Below are positions 4,306 through 12,326 of a DNA stretch of 37,532 bases, in pieces. Both the position numbers and the translations under genes were made by a program. Each line of letters begins with the position of its first letter. Positions within the stretch are counted from its first letter, which is position 1. The notes beneath the pieces were generated by a model. The model saw only the letters and a program-made list of their open reading frames with translations, made no database searches and had not been told where the DNA came from. This DNA comes from Planctomycetia bacterium (lineage in GTDB: Bacteria > Planctomycetota > Planctomycetia > Pirellulales > UBA1268), in contig RFRL01000009.1 in NCBI GenBank assembly GCA_009924545.1, positions 1 through 37,532 of the forward strand, in the 5' to 3' direction.

Positions 4306-6696
4306 TCAATCGTGGCGCTCGTCGGCGGGTAGAGGGTTGCCGGGCGCGGGCATGGGGAGTGGCACGAGCGCCCCGTGTCCGATGATGAACGCCCGGGGCG
4401 ATGGTTCGCTGTCGAAGTTCACCGTGGCCACGGCACGGGGGCCGACGCCACTGATGGCCGTCACGTTGCCGACGCCGTACTCGGCATGCCGGATCCGTTG
4501 GCCGGCGACGAGCGCGGGGGCCGACGGAGCGGGTTGGCCCGGGCGTCGTGCGGTGAGTCCGGAGGGCGTGGTCGGCCCACGGGATTGATTGCGCCGCGGC
4601 GTCGCGGTCCCGTCCGAAGCCTCCTCGGGTTCGAACGTCAGTCCGTCGGCCCGCGGTTGACCCTGGGTTGCCGGTGGCGGGACATGGTCGCCGTCGTCGT
4701 CCTGACCAAGATCGTGGTGGCGTGACGCTGCCGCGCCGAGCAGCGACGTCGAGACCGTCCCGTGGGCCCCCTCGACGGTGGTCTCGGACCCGTGCATCTC
4801 CGCCAGGAAGATGCTCGGCACGCCCATCCGCCGACCGCCGCGGTAGTCCCTGACGCGGACGCAACTGGCATGGACCTCGGCGATACCTCGGGTGATCCCC
4901 ACGAAGACCAGCCGCCGTTCCTCCTCCAGGCGGTCCCGATCGTCGATGCTCCGCTCGTGGGGCAGGATGCCATCTTCGAGGGCCACCATGTACACGACGG
5001 GGAACTCGAGCCCCTTGGCGGCATGGAATGTCATCAGCGATATCCGTTCGCTGGCGGGATCCCAGGCGTCGGTGTCGGAAACGAGGGCAGTCGAATCGAG
5101 GAAGGCCGACAGCGCGTCGTCATCGCCTCGACCGACAGTGGCCGTGTCGGCATCGAATTGCCGGGCGGCGGTCACCAGTTCCTCGACGTTGGCGAGTCGG
5201 TCCTCACCGTCGGCGTCGTCACCATCGTCGATCCACTCACGGAGGCCGGCCTTCTCCAGGAGCTTCTCGAGCAGCGCCGCGATTCCCGGGCTGGGTGGGG
5301 AGAGCTCGTCGTAGAGCTGGACGAAACCGGCGGCCGCATTCGCCGCCCGCCGCGAGGTGAGGGGAACGCGATCGGCCTCGCGCATGGCCTGCAAGAGCGG
5401 TATCCCCCGCGCGCCTGCCCAGGCTTGCAGGCGTTCCACCGATTGCTTGCCAAGGCCGCGTGGCGGCGCCTGGAGCGCGCGGAGGAGCGCCTCCTCGTCG
5501 CGGGGGTTGCGCAACAAACGCAGCCAGGCGAGTACATCACGGATCTCGCGGCGCTTGAAGAACTCCACACCGCGCACCAACTGGTGCGGAATGCCAGCCC
5601 GCCGGAGAGCGATTTCCAACGATCTGGACAGGGCATTCGTCCGGAACAGGATGACGAAATCACGCGGGGTCCGCCGGCCGCTGCCGATTGCCGTGGCGAT
5701 TTCCCGTGTGATTCTTTCGGCCTCGGCTTGGCCGTCGTCGTCGATGACGATCCTCACGTGGGCCCCGGGGCCGGACTTGGTGAACAGACGCTTCGGTTTG
5801 CGGTGGACGTTGTGGCCGATGAGCCTGTCGGCCGTGCCGAGGATGTTGCCGGTGCTGCGGTAATTCTCTTCCAGCGCCACCACGGCAGCCGACGGATAGT
5901 CACGTTCGAATTCCAGGATATTGCGGATGCTCGCGCCCCTCCATCCATAGATGGCTTGGTCAGGATCACCCGTCACCGCAAGATTCGGGTGGTCGATCGA
6001 GAGGGCCCTGACGATCGCGTACTGGACGGCGTTGGTGTCCTGATACTCGTCGACGAGGATCCAGCGGTGCCAGGCGTCGAGTTGGGCACGCAGTTCCGGG
6101 TGGTCGGCCAGGATTGTCGCCACGTGGATGAGCAGATCGTCGAAGTCGACCGCATCGGCCTCGAGGAGGAGTTGCTGGTAGACCGGCCACACGCGCCGGG
6201 CCGTTTCCTCGGCCGGCCGGCCCCACCGCGGGGAAAACGAATCGGGGGTGAACAGGTCATTCTTGGCCCGACTGATGATGCCGGCGAGCCGGTCGATCGG
6301 CGTGTGCGTCAGCGACAGGCCGAGCTTGCGCGCCGCCCGCTTCAACACCGCAGCGGAGTCGTCGGGGTCGAGGATCGAGAAGTCGCCGGTCAGTCCCACC
6401 ATCCGGGCGTGACGGCGGAGCAGGCGGGCGGCGAACCGGTGGAATGTCCCCAGTTCCACCGGCTTTGGCCCGATGATCGCGGTGAGTCGCCGCCGCATCT
6501 CGTCGGCAGCTTTGTTGGTGAAGGACAGCGCGACGATCGCCTGGGGCGGCACGCCCACGTGCACCAGATGTGCGATCCGATGGGTCACCACCCGGGTCTT
6601 GCCACTGCCGGGGCCGGCGAGCACGAGGAGCGGGCCCTCCACGTGGGAAGCGGCCCGGCGCTGGGCATCGTTGAGGGATTCGAGAAGCCGTTCCAT
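4306..6696 (-). CDS. UvrD/PcrA-type superfamily 1 DNA helicase
   Basis: LNDAQRRAASHVEGPLLVLAGPGSGKTRVVTHRIAHL, VDEYQDTNAVQYAIV, GDPDQAIYGWRGA, ENYRST, LMTFHAAKGLEFPVVYMV, RRLVFVGITRG; C-terminal RIRHAEYGVGNV domain. Start chosen at ATG 6696; the ORF itself extends to 6834. Confidence 0.93.
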   Translation of the reverse strand: MERLLESLNDAQRRAASHVEGPLLVLAGPGSGKTRVVTHRIAHLVHVGVPPQAIVALSFTNKAADEMRRRLTAIIGPKPVELGTFHRFAARLLRRHARMVGLTGDFSILDPDDSAAVLKRAARKLGLSLTHTPIDRLAGIISRAKNDLFTPDSFSPRWGRPAEETARRVWPVYQQLLLEADAVDFDDLLIHVATILADHPELRAQLDAWHRWILVDEYQDTNAVQYAIVRALSIDHPNLAVTGDPDQAIYGWRGASIRNILEFERDYPSAAVVALEENYRSTGNILGTADRLIGHNVHRKPKRLFTKSGPGAHVRIVIDDDGQAEAERITREIATAIGSGRRTPRDFVILFRTNALSRSLEIALRRAGIPHQLVRGVEFFKRREIRDVLAWLRLLRNPRDEEALLRALQAPPRGLGKQSVERLQAWAGARGIPLLQAMREADRVPLTSRRAANAAAGFVQLYDELSPPSPGIAALLEKLLEKAGLREWIDDGDDADGEDRLANVEELVTAARQFDADTATVGRGDDDALSAFLDSTALVSDTDAWDPASERISLMTFHAAKGLEFPVVYMVALEDGILPHERSIDDRDRLEEERRLVFVGITRGIAEVHASCVRVRDYRGGRRMGVPSIFLAEMHGSETTVEGAHGTVSTSLLGAAASRHHDLGQDDDGDHVPPPATQGQPRADGLTFEPEEASDGTATPRRNQSRGPTTPSGLTARRPGQPAPSAPALVAGQRIRHAEYGVGNVTAISGVGPRAVATVNFDSEPSPRAFIIGHGALVPLPMPAPGNPLPADERHD

Positions 6697-6982
6697 GGAG
6701 CCGGTTGTCACCCACATCCTGGTGGGAATGGGTGTTTCGGACAGTCTGGGGCAACCTGGCGAGACAGAGGAATCAGTAAGCGATGCCGATGAGTTCCGGC
6801 AACGGACGCGGTAGGCGTTTTGAACTCGCTTCACCTAGTATACGGGTCGAGGGTGTGTTCGACACGCGGTGACAGACCCGGGCCTGCGGTTGCGGAGCGA
6901 TCGCCACCGGAAATTGCACCGCCAGGTTTCGTCGACACGCCCATCGATTGGTGCACCACGTCGATCGCACGGGAGGGAACCC

Positions 6983-7285: not shown

Positions 7286-7469
7286 GCGGCGGCATCCGGG
7301 CGGCTGGTGACGGTCGTGGCGGCTGCGCGGGTCGTGACGCGCCAGCGAAAGAAACTCAGCTTCCGGAAGGCGGGTTTTTCGCGGGAATGTCCCGAAAACC
7401 AACCTAGGCTCTTTGAGAAGCGCGGATCAGGGGCATGGCCCGTGTCCGCCCTCCAGGGAGTCATTCTCG

Positions 7470-8696
7470 ATGAACGTCCGTCGCTCGGGTGCGCTGCTGT
7501 CGGTCGTGGCAGTTGTCGTATCGGTGTCCGCGCCGACCGCAACGGCGCAATGCTGCCTGAACGACCTGTTCGCCGGGTGCGCAAGCTGCTTCCGCCGTGC
7601 TCCGGCGGCGTACGCGGTGGCCCCCGTGACGGCGCCGCTGGTCGCCGCGCCCCAGCCCTATGCAATGGCACCCGTGCCGGCGCCACCGCCGCCGGTGGTC
7701 GTGCCGGTGCAGCAGGTCAGCTACGTTCCGGAGACGACCTACCGGACCCAGTACCAGTGCGTGCCGGTGACGAGCTACAAGCCGTCCACGGAGATCGATC
7801 CCTGCACCGGTTGCCCGCGCGAATGCATGCAACAAGTCACACAGTACGTGCAGCAAGCGGTCAACGTGCCGGTCACGCAGTACAGGGCGGTATATTCGAC
7901 GAAGTACGTGCAGATGCAACCCGGGAGTGGACAGGCCATGGCACCGCAGGCCATGGCGCCGCAACCGATGTATGGGCAGCCTCTTCCCATGGCCCCCGCG
8001 CCGGCGGTGGTGACGCCAGGCCCTGCCGGGGCGGCGACGAGCCCCTTCGCCGCCCCACTGCAAACGACGCCCCAGGCCTGGGGTTCGGCCGGAGCCGACA
8101 TCCCGCAACAACTCGTCCCCGGGCAAACGAGCATCGCCGCCCCCACCTTGTCGGCCCCGCCGACCGTATCGCAGCCGCTCGTCCCCCAACCCACCTTCCA
8201 ACAGCAGATCGTGCCGCAGTCGGGCACCTACGCGGCACCCCCTGCGGGCATTTCTCCGCAGCCGACGCCTCCGCCGACATTCACCCCCACGCCTGCCCTG
8301 CGCCCGATCCCCGAACTGCCCCGTGGCTCGGCGACGGCCGATGGCACCCCCGCGCCGAAGGGTGAAGCAACCCCTGGGGCCGGTGCAGCCGTGAACGCAG
8401 CACCCGTCATCGCGCCACCCGCCCTCACTCCGGCCCCGTCGACAGCCCCGTCTCCCGCAGCGACCGCACCGGCGGGGACTCCTCCGGGTGGTGTCGGCAC
8501 CGGGGCTACGATGCCCACCCTGCAGGGCGCCGGTCCGGCGGCGAATACCGGCGCCTTCCCCAGGTTGCTCGAGCCCACCGGGCACACCACTTCCTGGCAA
8601 CCCACCGCACCGTCCACCACGGCCGTGGCCAACCCGTCGGCCTATCCTCGGACGGCCTTGCCCGCCCGACTGGCACTGGGCGTGCCGCAGCCGTGA
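7470..8696 (+). CDS. Secreted Pro/Ala-rich low-complexity protein, unknown function
   Basis: ATG 7470: MNVRRSGALLSVVAVVVSVSAPTATAQ signal peptide, Cys-containing N-terminal region with VPVQQVSYVPETTYRTQYQCVPVTSYKPSTEIDPCTGCP, then a long P/A/T/Q-rich tail. Confidence 0.75.
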   Translation: MNVRRSGALLSVVAVVVSVSAPTATAQCCLNDLFAGCASCFRRAPAAYAVAPVTAPLVAAPQPYAMAPVPAPPPPVVVPVQQVSYVPETTYRTQYQCVPVTSYKPSTEIDPCTGCPRECMQQVTQYVQQAVNVPVTQYRAVYSTKYVQMQPGSGQAMAPQAMAPQPMYGQPLPMAPAPAVVTPGPAGAATSPFAAPLQTTPQAWGSAGADIPQQLVPGQTSIAAPTLSAPPTVSQPLVPQPTFQQQIVPQSGTYAAPPAGISPQPTPPPTFTPTPALRPIPELPRGSATADGTPAPKGEATPGAGAAVNAAPVIAPPALTPAPSTAPSPAATAPAGTPPGGVGTGATMPTLQGAGPAANTGAFPRLLEPTGHTTSWQPTAPSTTAVANPSAYPRTALPARLALGVPQP

Positions 8697-8835
8697 GGCG
8701 CGGGCAACCGGTTCGTCCGCGCCGACCAGCCATTCCGCCACCGGCCATTGCTCCCGGGCTTGCCGGCGATCCGGTCGTGGGTCGGCGCGGTAGTCTGTGA
8801 CCTGGTCTCCGGCCCCGCTTCGGAATCATGCCCGC

Positions 8836-10602
8836 GTGACCAACGCCGACATTGCCGCCGTGCTCGAACAGGTTGGGGATCTCCTCGAATACCTCGGGGA
8901 GAACCCGTTCCGATGCCGGGCCTACCGGTCTGCCGCCCGGACGGTTTCCGCCGTCGAGGAACCGTTGGTCGACCTCTGCCGTCGTGATGGCCTGGCCGGG
9001 CTGGACGGCATCGGTGTCGATCTCGCAGGACGGATCGCGGCGTTCATCGACAGCGGTCAATTCCCGCTTTTGGAGGATTTGAAGACCAGGGTGCCGGCCG
9101 TCGCCACCGATCTTGTGCGGGTGCCGGGGCTGGGGCCGAAGAAGGCCCGCCTGCTGATCGACCAACTCGGCATCGATTCACTGGCAGCACTGGAACAGGC
9201 CTGTCGGGACGGTCTGGTCGCCCGGTTGAAGGGTTTCGGGGAGAAGACCCAACAAGCGATCCTCCGTAACGTGGGATTCGCCGCGGACCCGGCGCGGCGC
9301 AGGCTCCTGTGGCGGGATGCCGACGACATCGTCCGGGAGCTCATCGCGTGGTTGGAGCGATGTCCGGCGGTGGGCCGTGTCGCCGCCGCCGGGAGTTGGC
9401 GGCGGGGGCGGGAGACCGTGGGCCATCTCCAGATCCTCGTCGCCACGCCGTCGCCCGCGATTGTCGTCGACCACGTCGCCGGCTGGCCCGAGGCCGGCCC
9501 GGTGATGTCCCGGGACGAGTCCGGGGCGACGATGCGGGGACCGAAAGACGTGGAGATCGCCCTCCGCTTCGTCAAGGAAGCGGATTTTGCCGCCGCCCTG
9601 GTGTGTCGGACAGGTTCCCGGCAGCACACCGGTCAACTCGCCGCGCGGGCGCTGGAGCGGGGGCTGACCCTCGACGACCGGGGGTTGCAGCCGTTCGCTC
9701 CGGGGCGAAGTCCGGACCCGAGCCGTGTCCCTCCGGTCTGCACGACCGAGGACGACGTCTACGCCAGCCTCGGCCTGCCCTGGATCCCTCCGGAACTGCG
9801 CGAGGGCCAGAATGAAATCGCTTGCGCGGAACGCGGACGGCTCCCCGATCTGGTGCGCACGGAAGACGTTCGCGGCGATCTCCACATGCACACCACCGCC
9901 TCGGACGGCGAGGCGTCACTGGTGGAGATGGTGCGGGCGGCGATCGCCCGCGGTCTGGAATACATCGCCATCACCGACCATGGCCCGCGGGTGTCGATGG
10001 CCAACGGCCTCCGCCCCCAGCGACTCCTCGCCCAGTGGGAGGAGATCGATCGCCTCAACGCCTCCTTGGCGGCGTCGGAGCCGGCGCCGCTGGTGATCCT
10101 CAAGGGTGTCGAGGTGGACATGCTCGAACAGGGAGGGCTCGACCTTCCCGACGAATTGCTCGCCCGGGCCGACTGGGTGGTGGCGAGCTTGCACTACGGA
10201 CAGCAGCAACCCGGCGACAGGATCACCGCCCGGATCATCGAGGCGATGGAAAACCCCTGGGTGAGCGTGATCGGTCATCCCACCGGTCGGCTGATCAATC
10301 GTCGTCCAGCCTACGAAGTCGACATGGAGGCGGTGATCGCCGCCGCCGCGCGCACGGGGACCTTCCTGGAGATCAACGCCAATCCCTGGAGGCTGGACCT
10401 TCATGCAGGCCACGCGGCCGCCGCCCGGGAAGCGGGGGTGGGGCTCGTGGTGTCCACCGACGCCCACTCCACCGCCGGTCTGGACGTGCTCCGGTGCGGG
10501 ATCCTCCAGGCCAGGCGGGCGGGGTGCACGGCGGCCGACGTGGTCAACACGCGGAGCCTGGCCGCTCTGCGGGCGCTCTCGGGCCGGGGTGTCGGAGCCT
10601 GA
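8836..10602 (+). CDS. PolX-family protein with HhH and PHP domains; polymerase active site apparently degenerate
   Basis: NADIAAVLEQVGDLLEYLGENPFRCRAYRSAART, HhH VPGLGPKKARLLIDQLGI, GSWRRGRETVGHLQILVA (canonical GD[LI]DIL), PHP motifs GDLHMHTTASDG, ITDHGP, KGVEVDML, ASLHYG, GHPTGR, STDAHS. Confidence 0.9.
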   Translation: MTNADIAAVLEQVGDLLEYLGENPFRCRAYRSAARTVSAVEEPLVDLCRRDGLAGLDGIGVDLAGRIAAFIDSGQFPLLEDLKTRVPAVATDLVRVPGLGPKKARLLIDQLGIDSLAALEQACRDGLVARLKGFGEKTQQAILRNVGFAADPARRRLLWRDADDIVRELIAWLERCPAVGRVAAAGSWRRGRETVGHLQILVATPSPAIVVDHVAGWPEAGPVMSRDESGATMRGPKDVEIALRFVKEADFAAALVCRTGSRQHTGQLAARALERGLTLDDRGLQPFAPGRSPDPSRVPPVCTTEDDVYASLGLPWIPPELREGQNEIACAERGRLPDLVRTEDVRGDLHMHTTASDGEASLVEMVRAAIARGLEYIAITDHGPRVSMANGLRPQRLLAQWEEIDRLNASLAASEPAPLVILKGVEVDMLEQGGLDLPDELLARADWVVASLHYGQQQPGDRITARIIEAMENPWVSVIGHPTGRLINRRPAYEVDMEAVIAAAARTGTFLEINANPWRLDLHAGHAAAAREAGVGLVVSTDAHSTAGLDVLRCGILQARRAGCTAADVVNTRSLAALRALSGRGVGA

Positions 10603-10638: not shown

Positions 10639-11820
10639 TCAGTGGGGGCTGAGAACGCACCGAAAACCGATGTGATTGCACCCCGACGTCACCTCGGCCT
10701 TGCCGCGGGTGCCGACGATGTACCGGGAGCAGTACTGGTCAGTGCAGAGGAAGGAGCCTCCACGCAGGGCCCGCTTCCGCTGGCCCGGTTCCTGGGGATC
10801 GTGGCTCTCGGTCGGACCGGTGGGGTTGGGAAGCACGTCTTCAGGTGCTGCGCTGCGATAGGTGTCGGGCCGATACCAGTCGGAACACCACTCCCAGACG
10901 TTCCCCGACATGTCGTGCAGGCCGTACGGGTTGGCGGGATAGCGGCCCACCGGGGCGATCCCGGCGAAACCATCACCGGCCGAGTTGGCGTTGGGGAACC
11001 GCCCCTGCCACGTGTTGGCCATCCAGCGCCCTTCGGGCCGCAAGGCATCGCCCCAGGGATACATCGCGCCGGTCAGGCCGCCGCGGGCGGCGAACTCCCA
11101 TTCCGCCTCGGTCGGCAGCCGCTTGCCCGCCCAGCGTGCGTAGGCTTCGGCATCTTCGTAGGCCACGTGCACGACCGGTTCGTCGTCACGATCCGCGTTC
11201 GTGCTCTCGGGACCGAGCGGATGCCGCCAGTCGGCACCCGGGACGTAATCCCACCACCGGTAGTGGGTGTCGAGTGGTACGGTTTGGTCCGGTGGCGTGA
11301 AAACGATGGAGCCCGCGACCAGGTTCTCCGGTGGCGCGCCCGGGAAATCCTCCGCCCGAGGCGTGCGCTCGGCGACAGTGACATACCCGGTCGCGGCGAC
11401 GAATGCCGCGAACTGCCGGTTCGTGACCTCGGTGACGTCCATGAAGAACCCATCGACGCTCACGCGGTGGATCGGGCGAGCGTCATCCATTGCCTCGCGG
11501 CCTCCGTCGGGACGGCCCCGTGGGTCGGCACATCCCATGGAAAACTCGCCACCCGGGATCCACACCATCCCGGTGATCCGTTCCGCGGGGATGGTCGGCG
11601 CCGGGGCCGACCGCGTTACCGTCGGGGCGAACGCGTTGGTCGCCTGAACAGCCAGTGAGGTTCCGGTGACCGTGGGCGCCGGTGTGGTTTCCGGGGCCGC
11701 CGGCACGAGTGCCCGGCAGATGCCCCACAGCAGCAGTGCGCCGCCCAACCCCGTGGCTCCCGCCACTGCCAAGGCCGAAGGCCCGGAGCCCTGCCGCCGA
11801 TGATTTGATCGTCCCGTCAT
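10639..11820 (-). CDS. Formylglycine-generating enzyme / sulfatase-modifying factor family, membrane-anchored
   Basis: GMVWIPGGEFSMGCAD, DGFFMDVTEVTNRQFAAFVAATGYVT, RLPTEAEWEFAARGG, YGLHDMSGNVWEWCSDWY, LRGGSFLCTDQYCSRY (CX4C), GFRCV; N-terminal hydrophobic segment. Confidence 0.92.
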   Translation of the reverse strand: MTGRSNHRRQGSGPSALAVAGATGLGGALLLWGICRALVPAAPETTPAPTVTGTSLAVQATNAFAPTVTRSAPAPTIPAERITGMVWIPGGEFSMGCADPRGRPDGGREAMDDARPIHRVSVDGFFMDVTEVTNRQFAAFVAATGYVTVAERTPRAEDFPGAPPENLVAGSIVFTPPDQTVPLDTHYRWWDYVPGADWRHPLGPESTNADRDDEPVVHVAYEDAEAYARWAGKRLPTEAEWEFAARGGLTGAMYPWGDALRPEGRWMANTWQGRFPNANSAGDGFAGIAPVGRYPANPYGLHDMSGNVWEWCSDWYRPDTYRSAAPEDVLPNPTGPTESHDPQEPGQRKRALRGGSFLCTDQYCSRYIVGTRGKAEVTSGCNHIGFRCVLSPH

Positions 11821-12326
11821 GCGAGTGCCTTTCGTAGCGCCAGCCGGCAGTGCCGTCGGAGGTCGTGACGCCGGTCTCGGTCCCACCAAGCGGTGAATAC
11901 CCGGAGGATCTCCCGGAGCCAGCGACGGAACCACCTGCACGGTTTGGCGGGCACGAGATCGCGGAACAGGGCCATGCTCGCCAGGCTGCGTCTGGTTGAC
12001 ACGCGCAACCGGTGGATCCGTTCGACGGAGCATGGTCCGGACCCGCTCGCCACCACTTCGGTCCAGACCGCGTCGAGGGTCGAGATCAAAGTCCGCCGCA
12101 CACGCACCGCCAGCCGCCAGGGATGGGCGGTGGCGGATCGCCCTGAGTTTGCCAGCACCATGATCGGGACCACGTCCGTCCGCGCGACCGCGCGGCGATG
12201 GTGCCGCGGAACGCCCCGGAACAATTTACCGGACGGCGAGCCGGGAAAACCAGCGATGGAGGCCAGCCCGACCGCGGGGCGACGCAACGGAAAGGACGAC
12301 TCCCGCGGAGGCAGGCCGCCACGCAA
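11817..12326 (-). CDS. Short CHAD-like domain protein (true start uncertain)
   Basis: VERIHRLRVSTRRSLASMALFRDLVPAKPCRWFRRWLREILRVF resembles the CHAD core; stop TGA overlaps the FGE start codon (ATGA). Confidence 0.5.
   Translation of the reverse strand: MRGGLPPRESSFPLRRPAVGLASIAGFPGSPSGKLFRGVPRHHRRAVARTDVVPIMVLANSGRSATAHPWRLAVRVRRTLISTLDAVWTEVVASGSGPCSVERIHRLRVSTRRSLASMALFRDLVPAKPCRWFRRWLREILRVFTAWWDRDRRHDLRRHCRLALRKALA

Follow-up and report, generated by a model that had tools for sequence, protein, structure and literature searches.

We found that the polX-like gene at positions 8836..10602 (+ strand) of the window, the 37,532-nucleotide stretch of planctomycete DNA that was analyzed here, encodes a full-length PolX that has lost the catalytic residues of its polymerase site and keeps an intact PHP nuclease site. 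The gene has descended in place from canonical planctomycete PolX, and the relaxation of constraint is focused on its palm and fingers. With a probability of roughly 0.88, we regard the protein as a noncanonical PolX, that is, a planctomycete ortholog whose polymerase chemistry was lost in the ancestor of the genus and which has been retained for its PHP nuclease. Proteins in which a dead polymerase scaffold carries a PHP nuclease are already known; what is new is a recent, independent polymerase loss in planctomycetes, with close canonical orthologs available for comparison and a Q240E change that is shared by the whole genus.

The PolX gene and its altered polymerase site

The gene encodes 588 residues from a GTG start, where the N-terminus MTNADIAAVL aligns with MRNQELARIF of Thermus PolX; starting from an alternative GTG in the same frame at 8797, the protein would be 13 residues longer. 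The reading frame is intact, and five domains follow one another on the + strand: the 8 kDa domain (HHH_8, Pfam PF14716, E 1.1e-16; residues 1-75, 8836..9060), the helix-hairpin-helix region of the thumb (HHH_5, PF14520; 9109..9264), a full-length palm without deletion (residues 166-248, 9331..9579), the fingers (PF14791, which carries the Pfam name DNA_pol_B_thumb; 9595..9804), and the PHP nuclease domain (9877..10575). The helix-hairpin-helix regions named in the preliminary description are present as the two Pfam domains, while the interval it had given, 9409-9561, covers the palm motifs but not the full extent of the gene. Thermus PolX (3au2) matches residues 1-574 (E = 1e-104), and NCBIfam PRK08609 ("DNA polymerase/3'-5' exonuclease PolX") matches at 438.9 bits against a cut-off of 426. 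Judged by domain order and full-length homology, the protein is a prokaryotic PolX, and automatic annotation via the PRK08609 equivalog would label it a DNA polymerase.

The DxD motif had been read as HxQ and the third aspartate as alanine, and both the codons and a gap-free alignment to VGDLD and QVDLR of Thermus PolX bear this out. Codons 9421-9432 (ggc cat ctc cag) give G-H-L-Q, and codons 9550-9567 (gtg gag atc gcc ctc cgc) give V-E-I-A-L-R, placing H197 (cat, 9424..9426) at catalytic Asp 1, Q199 (cag, 9430..9432) at Asp 2, and A242 (gcc, 9559..9561) at Asp 3. The D-D-D triad has thus become HQA, and the three acidic palm residues by which a canonical PolX is recognized are gone. No gap interrupts the alignment here, so the aspartates have not shifted to neighboring positions, a possibility that the preliminary description had raised. 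The motif context around the lost triad is retained (GSWRRGRETVG and EIxLR); within it lies GSWRRG (9391..9408), the palm's contribution to the dNTP site, and each of the four species in the genus retains GSxRRG.

The loss extends beyond the triad, to which the preliminary description had confined it, and includes a fingers motif; a glutamine-to-glutamate change had also been missed. At 9604..9630, CRTGSRQHT replaces the canonical YFTGSKEHN: the steric gate YF and the Asn equivalent to Pol beta N279 are lost, TGS and H are kept, and K is changed to R. The dNTP pocket of a canonical enzyme (a YF or HF gate, GS, K/R, and N) is therefore incomplete, with GS retained and the K to R change conservative, and the YF..K..N positions are altered in all four species. 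The glutamate, E240 (9553..9555), precedes A242 by two residues and is Q in nearly all canonical relatives and E in 4/4 members of the genus. This Q240E change is common to the four species, though the residues that replace the triad vary among them; in each species, one of the triad positions is also basic (H197, R199, or R242). In the 8 kDa domain, R66 (9031..9033) occupies the position of the Pol beta lyase lysine K72, an equivalence taken from its place in the GIGxDLAxK motif. This position is K in 129/139 aligned PolX proteins and in L004 and L007, and R in the window protein and L002, which by motif placement suggests that dRP-lyase chemistry is gone as well in the latter two.

The PHP metal site is complete in the window protein, with 9/9 ligands in the pattern HHHEHHEDH (H350, H352, H382, E426, H453, H481, E512, D542, and H544). 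The PHP motifs reported earlier are thus preserved, as is the glutamate of the FLEIN motif (E512, 10369-10371), which was missing from that list. In Bacillus subtilis PolX, residues R469, R474, N498, R503, and K545 lead DNA to the PHP site (PMC6616362). Their putative equivalents in the window protein are R485, R490, N514, R519, and R561 (10288..10518, + strand), assigned by motif and a constant offset of 16 rather than by alignment with the B. subtilis sequence.

Distribution and descent of the loss

The genus is represented by four genomes with one PolX each, and their triads are HQA (the window), CRA, NDR, and NDR. Asp 1 and Asp 3 are lost in 4/4 species, with the frame and the PHP domain intact, and a search of the four genomes for a second, active PolX returned one match per genome and no such copy. 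On the other hand, the DDD triad is present in 31/31 PolX proteins from other genera of the family and in 22/22 main-copy orthologs from other families of the order, or 53/53 together, and an even sample of the phylum gave DDD in 29/30 fetched loci and NDE in one. Since other planctomycete homologs keep DDD, the loss is genus-wide rather than clade-wide, and the clade-wide loss that the preliminary description had proposed checking for is ruled out. Chance and sequencing or assembly error are likewise ruled out as the cause, because the triad is lost in four independent genomes. Two species retain Asp 2, and this distribution of states suggests an order in which Asp 1 and Asp 3 disappeared before it.

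Altered triads were also seen elsewhere. L162, from a genome of the same phylum (G087), combines the triad NDE with nearly canonical fingers (YYTGSKDHN) and is possibly a case of early or partial polymerase loss. Among 80 loci from named genomes, the non-DDD proteins besides L059 were four from Bacteroidetes and one from a cyanobacterial MAG. L059 matches the CRA protein of G003 in motifs and identity, and the two probably represent the same genome. The PolX of cyanobacterial MAG SZAS-4 (L118:3001-4677) has the triad NNS and a degraded fingers motif, and its tree position is separate from the Bacteroidetes group.

Since the substitutions in the genus are of the same class as those in the main noncanonical cluster (Bacteroidetes and Deinococcus), the gene might have been acquired horizontally from that cluster, but the phylogeny and gene order make this extremely improbable. 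When the palm and fingers columns are left out of the alignment, the resulting trees group the four genus proteins together with full support, nested within the canonical planctomycete family. Their union with the Bacteroidetes noncanonical PolX is rejected (p-AU 2.6e-20), a test in which the main cluster was represented by its Bacteroidetes rows only. The palm and fingers are also free of deletions. The window PolX thus falls outside the main monophyletic cluster, which is not a requirement for a noncanonical PolX; smaller, separate noncanonical groups exist besides it (PMC9226535). The minimum number of changes between canonical and noncanonical states on the sampled tree is four.

Gene order gives the same picture. 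The arrangement UvrD / proline-rich / PolX / FGE-sulfatase / RpoC is shared by the genus with its canonical relatives G006 and G023, and with canonical G022 up to the contig limit. In the window, the syntenic markers are a divergent UvrD-type helicase (4306..6834, - strand), a proline-rich conserved hypothetical gene just upstream of PolX (7413..8696, + strand), which has no known joint action with PolX, and a convergent FGE-sulfatase (SUMF1-like) gene (10639..12033, - strand). The proline-rich protein is without a Pfam match, and its gene directly precedes PolX, in the same orientation, in six of six relatives compared. This synteny with canonical relatives, which also speaks against horizontal transfer, indicates a recent polymerase loss at the original locus, independent of the Bacteroidetes noncanonical proteins.

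Constraint on the two halves and competing readings

Among sites conserved in the family, 15/52 in the palm and fingers are changed in all four species, compared to 3/124 in the PHP domain (Fisher p = 9e-7) and 3/55 in the 8 kDa domain and thumb. On a fixed tree, the branch-length ratios of the genus were the highest of 35 subtrees, both for palm/PHP (4.4; median 1.5) and for fingers/PHP (10.4; median 2.0). Rough dN/dS values, which are NG86 estimates on short domains, were 0.43 for the palm, 0.35 for the fingers, and 0.10 for PHP in the pair L001-L002, compared to 0.00-0.24, 0.00-0.28, and 0.05-0.12, respectively, in canonical pairs. PHP values within the genus were 0.09-0.10, and the pair L004-L007 was too similar to inform on the palm and fingers. 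The polymerase half is subject to drift, yet it evolves below neutrality and without deletion. A predicted structure of the window protein, a check that had been proposed earlier, reached a mean pLDDT of 92.6 and superposed on the DNA ternary complex of Thermus PolX (3au6) with TM 0.86/0.90. Since a confident model superposes on this complex, the polymerase fold is probably kept. Together, the lost triad and dNTP pocket, the constrained PHP domain, and the modeled fold lend support to the preliminary description's reading of a PolX-derived nuclease on a dead polymerase fold.

These data bear on how much function the palm may retain. A residual or rewired polymerase, in which E240 with H197 or D199 would bind metal and allow slow synthesis, could account for the presence of E240 in all four species and its rarity elsewhere, as well as for the Asp 2 kept in the NDR species. 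We nevertheless consider it very unlikely, since the DxD strand of the HQA and CRA proteins is devoid of carboxylates, the site of three species contains a positively charged R199 or R242, and the steric gate and the N279 equivalent are lost. In B. subtilis PolX, a single aspartate-to-alanine change (D203A) already abolishes the polymerase, and an earlier claim of polymerase activity in a noncanonical PolX was not reproduced (PMC9226535). New chemistry at a remodeled palm site, for example an HxQ pair binding another metal or ligand, would draw on His 197 as a possible ligand and on the retained GSxRRG loop around the site. This too is very unlikely, as the replacements vary by species (H, C, or N; Q, R, or D; A or R), which looks like drift rather than a new conserved site, and as dN/dS is raised in the palm and fingers. 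Decay of the whole gene toward a pseudogene would fit the missing triad and dNTP pocket and the loss of the lyase-lysine equivalent in two species, but it is highly improbable given a frame that is intact in four species, a gene retained in place, and the low PHP dN/dS and few changed PHP sites described above.

One observation sits uneasily with loss of the polymerase and retention for the nuclease, the explanation that we favor. Conservation remains complete in the GSxRRG loop, which is part of the dNTP site in active enzymes, and in the TGS of the fingers. This is unexpected for a wholly drifting site and would follow from a structural role or from a loss that is still young. We tentatively raise a more specific version, which we think doubtful but conceivable, in which the common ancestor of the genus lost Asp 1 and Asp 3 and a single branch subsequently lost Asp 2, E240 pairs with whichever basic residue (H197, R199, or R242) now occupies the vacated metal site, and the palm became a stabilized, noncatalytic holder of DNA ends serving the PHP nuclease in Ku-free repair.

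Repair setting and relation to known PolX proteins

Noncanonical PolX proteins were described by Prostova et al. (2022, NAR; PMC9226535) and accounted for 27.5% of the 2,935 proteins in a 2022 set; in a 2026 survey, the polymerase site was intact in only 75% of PolX1 and the PHP site in 95%. The PolX proteins of D. radiodurans (AEE) and D. gobiensis (ARE) have no polymerase activity and a robust Mn-dependent 3'-5' exonuclease (PMC9226535). By analogy with such relatives, the window protein would be an active nuclease, and its dead polymerase half may act as a DNA-binding platform. The helix-hairpin-helix regions, the 8 kDa domain, and the palm and fingers would all still fold and would probably grip DNA at gaps or nicks. 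At its Mn-dependent PHP site, the protein would then trim or clean the 3' end as a 3'-5' exonuclease, 3'-phosphodiesterase, or phosphatase, and perhaps also incise at abasic sites. After this trimming, another polymerase, most likely Pol I, would by the same analogy fill in.

The likelier setting for these steps would be base-excision repair or the cleaning of single-strand-break ends, with synthesis by Pol I. The three sister species have Pol I, and all four genomes of the genus encode endonuclease IV. A DNA polymerase I domain was not found in the window assembly (92.9% complete), which, with all three sisters having one, is probably an assembly gap. ExoIII gave no match above the cut-off in any family member searched, canonical or not, and with endonuclease IV in all four genus genomes, a tie between polymerase loss and a changed set of repair enzymes found no support. 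Altered PolX is often co-encoded with NHEJ, as an association and not a strict requirement. In contrast, a search of 36 family genomes, the four of the genus among them, found no Ku, so that a Ku-dependent NHEJ role of the type proposed for such proteins is unlikely for the genus PolX and an NHEJ partnership is unsupported in the family. Elsewhere in the order, G053 has a second PolX with the triad DGN and an intact PHP site, located in a LigD - Ku - PolX run on one strand (L149:6165-11549), in addition to an ordinary DDD PolX elsewhere in the genome. This second copy is a noncanonical PolX that sits directly inside what looks like an NHEJ operon.

The window protein resembles the noncanonical PolX of PMC9226535 in having lost the triad acids within a conserved context, the steric gate, and the N279 equivalent, and in keeping the nine-residue PHP site and the full domain order. 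Unlike those proteins, it arose independently inside canonical planctomycete PolX and has no deletion in the palm or fingers, with the fingers GS and palm GSxRR kept; planctomycetes are not named in the main text of that paper. With canonical PolX (Thermus thermophilus 3au2/3au6 and B. subtilis), it shares the fold, domain order, and PHP site, and it is orthologous to the canonical planctomycete copy, but it is without the three catalytic aspartates and the dNTP-binding Y, F, and N. The PolX-like proteins of Actinobacteria (PMC12926913) have also kept PHP and dispensed with polymerase function, though by lacking the whole polymerase region, whereas the genus protein is full length and predicted to fold. 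Since canonical (DDD) orthologs with about 65% identity to the HQA, NDR, or CRA enzymes lie at the same locus, such pairs make it possible to test directly what PHP nuclease function owes to the polymerase half once DNA synthesis has been lost.
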